Below are positions 9,748-56,642 of a stretch of DNA of 64,000 nt, one piece after another. Numbering within the stretch: the stretch's first letter is position 1; each line of letters begins with the position of its first letter. The notes under the pieces are model-generated. The model was given only the letters and a program-made list of their open reading frames with translations. It made no database searches and had not been told where the DNA came from. Source of the stretch: Actinomycetota bacterium. GTDB lineage: Bacteria; Actinomycetota; Thermoleophilia; Gaiellales; Gaiellaceae. The DNA lies in contig CANFDS010000003.1 in assembly GCA_947445525.1 (NCBI GenBank), forward strand, positions 1 to 64,000, in the 5' to 3' direction. A program made the position numbers and the translations under genes.

Positions 9748-9814
9748 CCGGGCGCTGTCGCCGAACTCACCCTCCAGGCGTCTCTGGAGGGTGAGTTCGG
9801 CAAGAGGCGCCCGG
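9748..9814. terminator. Strong hairpin: 18-bp perfect stem (9760-9777 / 9784-9801) inside an 8-bp outer stem (9748-9755 / 9807-9814), between convergent genes
   Basis: gccgaactcaccctccag-gcgtct-ctggagggtgagttcggc; outer ccgggcgc...gcgcccgg; no U-tract. Confidence 0.65.
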
Positions 9815-39240: not shown

Positions 39241-39839
39241 CCGCCGCTGCTACCGCCTCCGCCACACCCACCCCCGCCGAGACACTCCCCGTCGAGCTCG
39301 ATGCCCGCTTCCGCGACAGCGCCGCCGCCGAGGGGCTGCTCGACGCCGCCTGGGACATCGCCGAGTCGCCGATCGGGCCGCTCCTGCTGGCCGCAAGCGC
39401 ACGCGGCCTTGCCTGGGTCGGCTTCGACGCCAACGACAGCGCGCTCGACCGGGCCGCCGCTGTGCTCGGGCGCCGCCTGCTCCGCGTCCCGCGCCTGCTC
39501 GACCCCACCCACCGCCAGCTCGACGGCTACTTCGCCGGGCACCTCCACGCGTTCGAGCTGACGGTCGACCTCGTAGCCCTCCCCGCCTTCCAGCGCGGCG
39601 TGCTCGAGGAGCTGCAGCGGGTGCCCTACGGCGGCACGGCCACCTACGCCGAGCTGGCGGTGCGCGTCGGCAAGCCGCGGGCGGCCCGCGCCGTGGGTGG
39701 GGCACTCAACCGTAACCCGGTGCCGATCGTCGTGCCGTGCCACCGCATCGTGGGCTCGTCGGGCTCGCTCACAGGCTACGCCGGCGGCCTCGAGCGCAAG
39801 CGAGCGCTGCTCGCGCTCGAGGCCGCGACGCTGCTCTGA
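39237..39839 (+). CDS. ogt: Methylated-DNA--protein-cysteine S-methyltransferase
   Basis: VPYGGTATYAELAVRVGKPRAARAVGGALNRNPVPIVVPCHRIVGSSGSLTGYAGGLERKRALL. Confidence 0.92.
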   Translation: MTAAATASATPTPAETLPVELDARFRDSAAAEGLLDAAWDIAESPIGPLLLAASARGLAWVGFDANDSALDRAAAVLGRRLLRVPRLLDPTHRQLDGYFAGHLHAFELTVDLVALPAFQRGVLEELQRVPYGGTATYAELAVRVGKPRAARAVGGALNRNPVPIVVPCHRIVGSSGSLTGYAGGLERKRALLALEAATLL

Positions 39840-39870
39840 GCTGCTGGCGGCACCGCTGTATAGTCGGCGC

Positions 39871-40824
39871 GTGGCTCGGAGCTCCCGGAACGCGGCCGTG
39901 GCGCCACTCCTGCTGCTCGTGCCGGGAGTGTTCTTCTGGGGCAGCTCGTTCCGGGCGACGACGATCGGCGTCGAGCACACTCCGGCGATCATGCTCGCGA
40001 TGCTGCGCACTGCACCGATCGGCGTCCTGATTCTGCTGCTGCCCCTGCTGGGCAAGCCGTTCCTGCGCGGCCGCATGCTCGTGCAGGCGGCAGTAACCGG
40101 CATCCTGAGCGTCGGTGTGCTCTACACGGCGCTCTCGATCTCGACCGACCTCGCCGGTCCGGGCAACGCCTCCGTGCTGATCAACTCGTCGCCGTTCTTC
40201 GTGCTGCTGCTGGGGTTCCTGTTCCTGTCGGAGCGGATCTCGCGGCTCGCGCTGCTCGGCCTCGTCGCCGGCTTCGCCGGGGTCGTGCTCATGGTGTCGT
40301 CACAGCTCGGGGGCGACGTCAGCACCGGCCGCCTCGCCGGTGGCATGGCGATCGCCCTGGCCGGCTCGGTCTCGTGGGCGATCTGCATCCTCTGGGTGAA
40401 GGCGCAGGCGCAGCAGAATGCACAGCTCGACCTGGTTCAGCTGACCCTGCACCAGTTCGCGTTCGGAGCTGCGCCGCTCGTCGCCATTGCCTTTCTCTGG
40501 AAGGGCTTCGGCAGCACCGACTGGGGCTCGGGCGAGCTGTGGGTCACCGTGGCGTGGCTGGTGATCGGTGCCGGTGCGATCGCGACGCTCACCTTCTTCC
40601 TGGCGCTCCGCCGCCTGTCGGCGACGACGACGGCCTCGTCGCAGTTCCTTGTGCCCGCCGTCGCCGTGCTGATCGAAATCGGCCGTGGCAGCAGCCCGGG
40701 TACCGCCGCGCTCACCGGCATGATCGTGGCCATCCTCGGCGTCGCCGTGTGCGTGATCGGGGACTCGCTCATCCGCTCGCTGCGGCCCGGCCTGCGCCCC
40801 CGGGACGGCACAGGAGCCGCCTGA
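39871..40824 (+). CDS. EamA/DMT-family transporter
   Basis: Ten-TM pattern; FFWGSSFRATTIGVEHTPAIMLAMLRTAPIGVLILL; GTG start. Confidence 0.85.
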   Translation: MARSSRNAAVAPLLLLVPGVFFWGSSFRATTIGVEHTPAIMLAMLRTAPIGVLILLLPLLGKPFLRGRMLVQAAVTGILSVGVLYTALSISTDLAGPGNASVLINSSPFFVLLLGFLFLSERISRLALLGLVAGFAGVVLMVSSQLGGDVSTGRLAGGMAIALAGSVSWAICILWVKAQAQQNAQLDLVQLTLHQFAFGAAPLVAIAFLWKGFGSTDWGSGELWVTVAWLVIGAGAIATLTFFLALRRLSATTTASSQFLVPAVAVLIEIGRGSSPGTAALTGMIVAILGVAVCVIGDSLIRSLRPGLRPRDGTGAA

Positions 40825-40828
40825 GCCG

Positions 40829-41758
40829 ATGCAGCGCGGCTCCACTCCCATCGTCGCGTGGGCGCTGCTGGCCCTGCCCGTCGGCTTCTGGGGCGGCGGC
40901 TACACGGCGACCTCCGTCGCGACCGACCACACCTCGGGGCTGCTGCTCGCCGGCCTGCGCACACTGCCGACGCTCGCGGTGCTGCCGCTGGCGCTGCTGC
41001 TCGGCGCCCGGCTGCCACGCGGGGCGGACATCCGCGGAGCCATCATCTCGGGATTGCTGGTGGTGACGGTGTTCTTCATCGGCATCTCCGAGGCGACGAA
41101 GCACGCCGGCGCGGCCAACGCCGCGGTGCTCATCTCGGCGGCGCCACTCTGGGTGGCCCTGCTGGCCCGCATCTTCCTGCGCGAGCGGATCTCCCGCACC
41201 GCAGTCGCCGGCCTGCTGCTGGGGTTCGCCGGGATCGTCGTGATGGTGTCGCGCCAGCTGGGCGGCAGCCACGGTGCGAGCGACCTGACCATCGGCATCG
41301 GCCTCGCCCTTGCCGCCGGGATTGCCTGGGCAGCGGGGACGATGATCGTGCGACGGATGGCGGTGCGAAACCCGCAGCTCGACTTCGTGGGCCTGACGGC
41401 GGCCCAGTACCTCGCCGGGTCGCCGATCCTGATCATCGTTGCCTTCGCCGTCAAGGGCACGGGCGGCACCGACTGGGGCTCCATCGACCTGTGGGGCGCG
41501 ACGCTGTGGCTCGCGCTCGGCAGCTCGGCCCTCGCCACCGGGGCGTTCTTCATGTCGCTGCGCTGGCTGAACGCCGCGCAGACGTCGTCGTCGCAGTTCC
41601 TGGTTCCGGTCGTCGCCGTCATCGTCGAGCTCGGGCGCGGCCACACCCCGGGCGGGCTCGTTCTCGTCGGCATGGCGCTCGCCATCGCAGGGGTCGCGCT
41701 CGTGGTCGCAGGTGAGGACGTGCGCTCGGCGCTCGCCCGCCGGCTGCGTCCCGTCTGA
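40829..41758 (+). CDS. EamA/DMT-family transporter (tandem paralogue)
   Basis: VGFWGGGYTATSVATDHTSGLLLAGLRTLPTLAVLPL; same topology and motifs as the upstream gene. Confidence 0.85.
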   Translation: MQRGSTPIVAWALLALPVGFWGGGYTATSVATDHTSGLLLAGLRTLPTLAVLPLALLLGARLPRGADIRGAIISGLLVVTVFFIGISEATKHAGAANAAVLISAAPLWVALLARIFLRERISRTAVAGLLLGFAGIVVMVSRQLGGSHGASDLTIGIGLALAAGIAWAAGTMIVRRMAVRNPQLDFVGLTAAQYLAGSPILIIVAFAVKGTGGTDWGSIDLWGATLWLALGSSALATGAFFMSLRWLNAAQTSSSQFLVPVVAVIVELGRGHTPGGLVLVGMALAIAGVALVVAGEDVRSALARRLRPV

Positions 41759-41985
41759 GCCTGAATCCGTCGCTCTGCGCGGGCGGTGCATCCCATCCGG
41801 GCTCGCCAGGGCGCTTCCCGCCGGGCATTCGGCCTGTCCGCTGATGCGGACTGGCCTTCACCTCGGCGGTGCGCTCCGCGCTCCGTCAGCTGCGGACGGG
41901 CAACCAGCCCGTCCGCGGCAGCCAGAGCACGTCCTGACTGTCCGGACGGGCGCCCCGCGATCGCGCCGAGCGACGGATTCAGGCT
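41758..41985. mobile_element. 228-bp MITE-like non-coding element with 18-bp perfect terminal inverted repeats and internal hairpins (classification tentative)
   Basis: agcctgaatccgtcgctc (41758-41775) / gagcgacggattcaggct (41968-41985); hairpins 41831-41856 and 41892-41916. Confidence 0.55.
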
Positions 41986-41991
41986 GAGCGC

Positions 41992-42714
41992 TCAGCACCG
42001 GGCCTCGCCCCACCCCGGCAGCCGCAGCCGATAGCCAATGCCCCACTCGTTGACGACCAGCGGCTCTGGCACACCGGTCGCCGCGAGCTTGCGCCGCACC
42101 CGCGAGGCATGCGAGTCGACGGTGCGCGTCTCGATGCCGGCCGGGTAGCCCCAGACGCCCCGTAGCAGCTCCTTCTTCGGGAACACGCGGAAGGGATCGC
42201 GGGCGAGCGCCACCAGCAGGTCGAACTCCGTCGCCGAGAGCTGGACGAACCGGCCGCCGACCGCCACGTGCCGCGCGGCGATGTCGATGCGCACCGGCCC
42301 CGCCTCGATCACGTCGTGGCGGGCCGGTGCCGCACGCCTCAGCACCGCGCGCAGGCGCGCGAGCAGCTCCTCGTAGAGCACGGGCCCGGGCACGTAGTCG
42401 TCGGCGCCGTGGGCGAATGCACGCACGCGGTCGGTTGCGTCGCCGGCAGGGTCGCCGAGCACGATCACGGGGACGTCGCGATCCCATTCACGGCCGGGCG
42501 CACCCGTGCGCAGGCGCCTGCACACGTCGGCCCCCGACGACTGCTCCAGCCGGCTGGCGAGCAGGATGGCGTCGGGGCGTGCACGCTCGGCCAGCCAGAG
42601 GGCGCGCGTCTCGTCCTCGGCCCCGAGCACGGCGAACCCGTCCTCCGCGAGGTGACGCTCCAGGAGTGCCCGCGCGGCAGGTTCGGGCTCGGCAAGAAGG
42701 AGTGCAGTGCTCAT
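41992..42714 (-). CDS. OmpR/PhoB-type winged-helix regulator with degenerate receiver domain
   Basis: C-terminal wHTH VQLSATEFDLLVALARDPFRVFPKKELLRGVWGYPAGIETRTVDSHASRVRRKL; receiver has ILLASRLEQSSG in place of the LLDLxLPxxxG Asp loop. Confidence 0.85.
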   Translation of the reverse strand: MSTALLLAEPEPAARALLERHLAEDGFAVLGAEDETRALWLAERARPDAILLASRLEQSSGADVCRRLRTGAPGREWDRDVPVIVLGDPAGDATDRVRAFAHGADDYVPGPVLYEELLARLRAVLRRAAPARHDVIEAGPVRIDIAARHVAVGGRFVQLSATEFDLLVALARDPFRVFPKKELLRGVWGYPAGIETRTVDSHASRVRRKLAATGVPEPLVVNEWGIGYRLRLPGWGEARC

Positions 42715-56076: not shown

Positions 56077-56642
56077 GGTCTGTCGGGGCCGAGGCCGCTC
56101 GGCAGCGGCGGCTGCCCCGCGAGCCCACCGGTCACGGTCATGGCCATCGGCATCAGCCCGAATGGGCGATAGGTGTCGCCGCCGTCGAGCGAGTACCAGC
56201 CGTCGTCGCTGCTGCCCGCGGGCAGCAGCGTGGCCGTGCCCTTGCCGACGAAGGAGAGGCTGACGCCACTCGCGACGAGCCGGAGCTTGAACTGGCCGCC
56301 GAGCACGCGGAAACGGAGATCGGTGCCGCTGTAGAGGATGGCGAACCGGCTCTGGCGCTGCGCCCGGTCGTAGCCCGACACGACGGGGACTCCGTCGGTC
56401 AGGTCGGCATCCTCGATCAGCAGCCTGCCCTTGCCCATCGACTGGCCGATGACGCTGCCGCGGCCGCTCAGCGTGAGGACGCCGTTCGCCGAGCGGATGG
56501 TCAGGATCCCGTCGGGCTGCAGCACAGGCGCGACGGCGGCTCCGCTCCGCTCGCGGGCAACCTCCGCTGCGGCCGCTGCCGGGAGGGCGAGCGCGACCAG
56601 CAGGAGGGCGGCGGCGAGGATGGGTGCGGTAGGGCGCATCAC
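56073..56642 (-). CDS. Hypothetical secreted protein
   Basis: Signal-peptide-like MMRPTAPILAAALLLVALALPAAAAAE then beta-rich sequence; ATGA-type overlap with the response regulator. Confidence 0.6.
   Translation of the reverse strand: MMRPTAPILAAALLLVALALPAAAAAEVARERSGAAVAPVLQPDGILTIRSANGVLTLSGRGSVIGQSMGKGRLLIEDADLTDGVPVVSGYDRAQRQSRFAILYSGTDLRFRVLGGQFKLRLVASGVSLSFVGKGTATLLPAGSSDDGWYSLDGGDTYRPFGLMPMAMTVTGGLAGQPPLPSGLGPDRP

Follow-up and report, generated by a model that had tools for sequence, protein, structure and literature searches.

A probable IS1380-type MITE with a conserved folded core between two convergent genes of a Gaiellaceae bacterium

MITEs, the non-autonomous transposable elements, are typically A+T-rich in prokaryotes and mostly derived from insertion sequences (ISs) (PMC10969869), and those of the Correia/NEMIS class have TA ends and are also A+T-rich (PMC2229807). 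The Correia/NEMIS repeats of Neisseria resemble the element described here in that they are small and bounded by terminal inverted repeats (TIRs), have a conserved core and a stable hairpin transcript, and lie next to genes; unlike them, this element has a G+C content of about 74%, a CTNAG target and no known RNase III or promoter role. The ERIC/IRU repeats of enterobacteria are likewise imperfect palindromes, of 100-200 bp, which can sit at gene 3' ends and are shared across genera, but they are unrelated in sequence and belong to another phylum, whereas a linked transposase family was identified here in relatives. MITEPye1 of Paracoccus shares TIRs that match an IS family, direct repeats and a long stem; it is, however, IS1182-linked rather than IS1380-linked, is present in 1-3 copies and, in the portion of its description available to us, has no reported conserved core (PMC11578231). 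The IS1380-family insertion sequences themselves (NF033539; e.g. IS1247, with 5-bp direct repeats; PMC3281130) are similar in their outer ends, CC..ATCCACCG, in the 5-bp duplication and, in this bacterial family, in CTNAG-like flanks. In contrast to them, the present element lacks a transposase and has an interior that does not descend from any of the IS copies seen.

The element lies in a window of 64,000 nucleotides, by which we mean the whole stretch of DNA analysed. An earlier note on this DNA had proposed a hairpin-rich element at 41758-41985, which could be a MITE, a large bidirectional terminator or a structured RNA. The exact 18-nt inverted repeat at 41758-41775 and 41968-41985 was indeed present, as were the two interior stems at 41831-41856 and 41892-41916, the latter of which extends to 41877-41931. 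Ungapped extension of the terminal repeat gave 27 nt at 93% (41755-41781 and 41962-41988). In 20 shuffled windows, no exact 18-nt inverted repeat with non-overlapping arms turned up within 260 bp. The RNA fold of the stretch reached -168 kcal/mol, compared with -120 in shuffles (z = -9.3). The element fills the gap between the stop codons of the EamA gene (41756-41758) and the regulator gene (41992-41994), and, as described, contains no convincing ORF, only spurious ones. The note had seen no clear target-site duplication, but a direct 5-bp repeat, CTGAG, was found at 41755-41759 and 41984-41988. Because this pair reads in the same direction on both sides (as part of the inverted repeat, it would read CTCAG at the right), it represents the target-site duplication, and the element proper is therefore 41760-41983. 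Thus, the inverted repeat was correctly placed, while the outermost bases of the proposed boundaries belong to the duplication. The features are as follows.

40829-41758, plus strand: EamA-family transporter gene, intact, whose stop codon is the insertion target (ORF, PF00892)
41755-41759: left target-site duplication CTGAG (sequence and direct-repeat pattern in 41 copies)
41760-41983: MITE proper, 224 bp (copies in its own genome and relatives; covariance-model match over the same span)
41760-41781, plus strand: left terminal inverted repeat CCTGAATCCGTCGCTCTGCGCG (repeat search; common to other copies)
41806-41819, minus strand: junction box GGGAAGCGCCCTGG, family consensus GGGAAGCGGCCTGG (94% mean majority identity, 16 divergent copies)
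41818-41869: inner hairpin holding the 11-bp stem 41831-41856, the part that varies most among copies in the alignment (fold and alignment)
41867-41878, minus strand: junction box CGGAGCGCACCG (92% mean majority identity, 16 divergent copies)
41877-41931: second inner hairpin holding the 10-bp stem 41892-41916 (repeat search, helices 3 and 4)
41930-41936, minus strand: box CAGGACG closing the three-way junction (87% mean majority identity)
41962-41983, minus strand: right terminal inverted repeat, reverse complement CCTGAATCCGTCGCTCGGCGCG (repeat search)
41984-41988: right target-site duplication CTGAG (sequence and direct-repeat pattern in 41 copies)
41992-42714, minus strand: convergent response-regulator gene (Response_reg and Trans_reg_C), intact (ORF, PF00072/PF00486)

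Elsewhere in the window, two EamA-like transporter genes apparently stand in tandem before the element (39697-41758; Pfam confirmed the second only), at 9760-9801 a 6-bp spacer separates the exact 18-nt arms of a perfect hairpin unrelated to the MITE, and a perfect palindrome of about 24 bp lies at 56207-56230.

We then examined the distribution of the element. A BLAST search of its own genome returned 25 matches to the stretch (E <= 0.001), and no fewer than eight copies in this genome are full-length or cut at a contig end; short palindromic derivatives occur as well. Full-length copies lie on contigs C3 (the window), C8, C16, C57 and C28, copies cut at contig ends on C7, C37, C52, C85 and C92, and shorter palindromic forms on C117/C12, C57 and C4. 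The C8 and contig-end copies are 99-100% identical to that on C16 and lie at unrelated sites; such near-identity implies recent spread and probably explains the breaks in the assembly at these places. Within the family Gaiellaceae, 11 of 101 genomes gave DNA-level matches, some of them weak, and the relatives together hold dozens more copies, with 61 terminal-repeat matches (at most one mismatch) in genome G046 alone. The single-copy case that the earlier note had allowed for is thus contradicted by dispersed copies in both the own genome and relatives. The plasmids and phages searched gave no match. Some copies are unusual in form. At L016:886-963 (G000:C57), a 67-bp derivative consisting of TIRs only sits on the stop codon of a gene that we take, from reading its translation, to be DnaJ-like, directly before a presumably PrmA-like methyltransferase gene. 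At L102:260-295 (G026:C89), two terminal repeats stand almost back to back in a 30-bp palindrome with CTAAG on both sides, an extreme deletion form. At L053:921-1157 (G046:C317), two MITEs seem to form a composite, either by insertion of one into the other or by recombination between them.

The same copies defined the target. A perfect 5-bp direct repeat flanked 23 of 41 copies, with a one-base difference in 10 more; the perfect duplications (n = 23) were CTGAG (10), CTCAG (9), CTAAG (2), TTAAG (1) and GTCAG (1). The middle base of CTNAG agreed across both sides in 21 of 24 cases (permutation p about 1e-5). In 23 of the 41 copies, the EamA case included, a stop codon within the duplication is the in-frame stop of the neighbouring gene, as counted with gene calls from a simple codon-usage script rather than a full gene finder. 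Where the duplicated TGA is the stop codon of the neighbour, as it often is, that gene stays intact after insertion. Only one of the 41 copies lies inside a called ORF, yet 25 of the 46 CTNAG sites in the window are coding. A special targeting of stop codons was considered and rejected, because non-coding CTNAG sites are already often at stops (13 of 21 in the window; the figure in other loci is 7 of 31); a CTNAG target together with the purging of coding insertions suffices to explain the pattern.

Comparison of the orthologous EamA-regulator junction gave both an empty and an occupied site. In the congener G032, whose regulator is 85% identical, the EamA and regulator stop codons overlap in CTAG with no element between them. 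In another congener, G046 (regulator 96% identical), the junction reads GCGCTCAG followed by CCTGAATCC and is occupied; here, the other arm comes first, so the element is inverted, and the contig terminates within it. This inversion may have arisen between the arms, whether by recombination or by template switching, or the element may have inserted independently. Neither junction fits the conserved, unstructured gap that had been named as the opposing case. Overall, the stretch is short, has no transposase ORF, and shows TIRs, a target-site duplication, dispersed copies and an empty versus occupied orthologous site, and its terminal repeat is shared with IS1380 insertion sequences (see below). 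These data indicate that, of the options offered by the earlier note, the MITE is the one borne out, and that the stretch is very probably a non-autonomous element of IS1380 type. It is a new family of a known kind of element with an unusually conserved core, and within a partial coverage of the literature we found no IS1380-derived MITE of this structure.

For this core, RNAalifold on 27 copies predicted a three-way junction, at which two inner hairpins join a long basal stem. Two-sided changes occurred in 29 of 72 pairs, a count reached by 0 of 500 shuffles and compared with at most 14 in slid controls. With 16 divergent copies, whose alignment was fitted to a covariance model, a procedure that favours the structure, the count was 44 of 72, again with 0 of 500 shuffles reaching it and slid controls far lower. 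Across these 16 copies, conservation was 92-94% in the junction boxes, 85% in the terminal repeats and 54-61% in the hairpin stems. Across the class, the covariance model detected the element in 12 of 399 genomes, and two further families of the order were represented among them. Also included, with a weaker match, was a genome (G177) from a different family of the class: its divergent elements (L229:1501-1653 and L237:1501-1655) differ in their ends, TGCCTATCCCGG and AACCTTTCCCGG, but have the same GGGCCGGTGGCCCGTTC hairpin and CTNAG-like flanks (CTAAG/CTAAA and TTTAG/CTTAG). The covariation is therefore strong, contrary to its absence, which the note had considered. The fold is real and conserved, more strongly than is usual in such elements, and a passenger element would not ordinarily be expected to keep such conserved junction boxes. 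The core may have a function; a part in transposition or replication of the element is no less likely here than a cellular RNA role.

One reading of the fold, which lies within the MITE explanation and is not an alternative to it, is that the covariation does not reflect selection: template switching between imperfect inverted-repeat arms would keep the arms matched and could invert the spacer. Both arm homogenisation and spacer inversion by this route have been described (PMC8604942), and a further report describes the maintenance of RNA hairpins in this way (PMC8794818). The inverted element in G046 fits the predicted spacer inversion, although terminal-repeat recombination or independent insertion could also have produced it. 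Template switching would thus account for the covariation and the inverted copy, but leaves unexplained the near-invariant junction boxes amid changing helices. We consider this reading a serious possibility that falls somewhat short of an even chance. More tentatively, the three-way-junction core might itself be the selected part, a folded module of RNA or single-stranded DNA whose junction boxes are invariant and which would have spread through Gaiellales, and perhaps other Thermoleophilia, while the terminal repeats (and possibly the transposase partner) changed and the core and CTNAG were kept; we regard this as rather doubtful.

A cellular function was also weighed, in which the IS1380-type MITE would carry the core as cargo and selection would act on it as a structured RNA, one that might for instance stabilise mRNAs or process their 3' ends. 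The paired changes (44 of 72), the junction boxes that exceed both terminal repeats and stems in conservation, and the occurrence of the same fold in other families of the order are all in line with such a role, and in 26 of 27 copies the more stable fold is that of the minus strand. However, on pairs common to both strand-derived structures, G-U and A-C changes stand at 15:12, with no strand preference; a first count of 52:24 for the minus strand was rejected as an artefact, since the structure had been chosen on that strand. Moreover, the element shows no single orientation with respect to the gene at whose stop it has inserted (a hand count gave about 13 to 10), and short derivatives without the core are common. 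A search of 4227 Rfam models (E <= 1) gave no match within the element, with weak spurious matches outside only, and a scan found no T-run, terminator-like site or promoter. The structured-RNA suggestion thus keeps its strong covariation across copies, while the strand tests lend no support to selection as RNA, and we consider such a function unlikely.

We also searched for the transposase that could move the MITE. The IS1380 domain (PF13701) was found in 7 of 103 genomes, and copies of one clade adjoin the same end as that of the MITE, in five related genomes:

G068:C120: transposase-flanking end CCTGGATCCACCGTTTTG
G030:C12: transposase-flanking end CCCGGATCCACCG
G030:C18: end CCCTGATCCACCG, intact 454-aa open frame, flank CTCAT
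G056:C181: CCTCGATCCACCG at both ends of a 1.1-kb decayed IS
G012:C189: end TCAATCCACCG, cut by the contig end
G028:C30: end CCTCAATCCACCG beside a transposase remnant

The transposase of G030:C18, which starts about 120 bp inside its end, is named IS1380 family by NCBIfam (NF033539, E 1.5e-98). Flanks of the IS1380 ends were TTTAG, CTTAG, CTGAG/CTCAG and CTGAG, that is, mostly CTNAG-like, and the 5-bp duplication of the MITE falls within the 4-5 bp of the IS1380 family. A different end, CCCGGATCCTGC, accompanies other IS1380 proteins, which are about 33-34% identical. A shared and conserved leader hairpin, TGACCTCCTGAGCAGG...CAGGAGGTCA, stands just before the transposase start in IS1380 elements of several genera (L126:1370-1450, upstream of the transposase in L128 and L124, and L202:45-120). 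The covariance model of the MITE gave no match in the IS interiors, so a simple internal-deletion derivative of the IS was rejected. An IS5-type transposase, first suggested by the CTNAG/TNA target, was dropped once IS1380 was found.

As relatives have IS1380 transposases adjoining this terminal repeat, with flanks that are mostly CTNAG-like, it is most likely, on comparative grounds, that an IS1380 transposase mobilises the MITE in trans. Against this link, the end of the window subfamily, CCTGAATCCGTCG, agrees with CCTGGATCCACCG, the most frequent IS-type end, at just 10 of 13 positions. A transposase of another family that shares the CTNAG target might do so instead. In its favour, no PF13701 transposase was found in the own genome and two congeners, all incomplete drafts, and the ends in G032 and G177 are divergent. 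Against it, the IS1380 elements of five genomes share the outer end and flanks, and the sole PF01609 match in the own genome is not tied to the ends, which makes this alternative improbable. Finally, a large bidirectional terminator conserved between the convergent genes, as the note had also offered, would suit the position between two stop codons and the very stable fold, but with no T-run or terminator-like site, no element at the orthologous G032 junction and many copies away from convergent junctions it is highly improbable, a terminator effect being possible as a side product.

For the IS1380-type MITE, we propose that a transposase acting in trans would recognise ends of the CC(T/C)NNATCC type, excise or copy the element, and insert it at CTNAG through a 5-bp staggered cut. 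As CTGAG contains TGA, insertion at the stop of a gene would regenerate the stop and be harmless, so such insertions could survive in a stretch that is roughly 94% coding. Thereafter, the element would be mostly a passenger, so that both converging transcripts would carry a very stable hairpin in their 3' tails. Correction of the arms by template switching may maintain its fold, as may a requirement for the fold or its junction boxes during transposition; the two could also act together.

These findings bear on a recurring problem, that of structured RNAs claimed from repeats: deep covariation together with near-invariant junction boxes offers a good test case for deciding whether a folded core is under selection or whether template switching maintains the palindromes. 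They also add a MITE family linked to IS1380 to a little-studied lineage of actinobacteria. Its target motif holds a stop codon, which shows how an element can abut the genes of a very compact genome and leave them undamaged.
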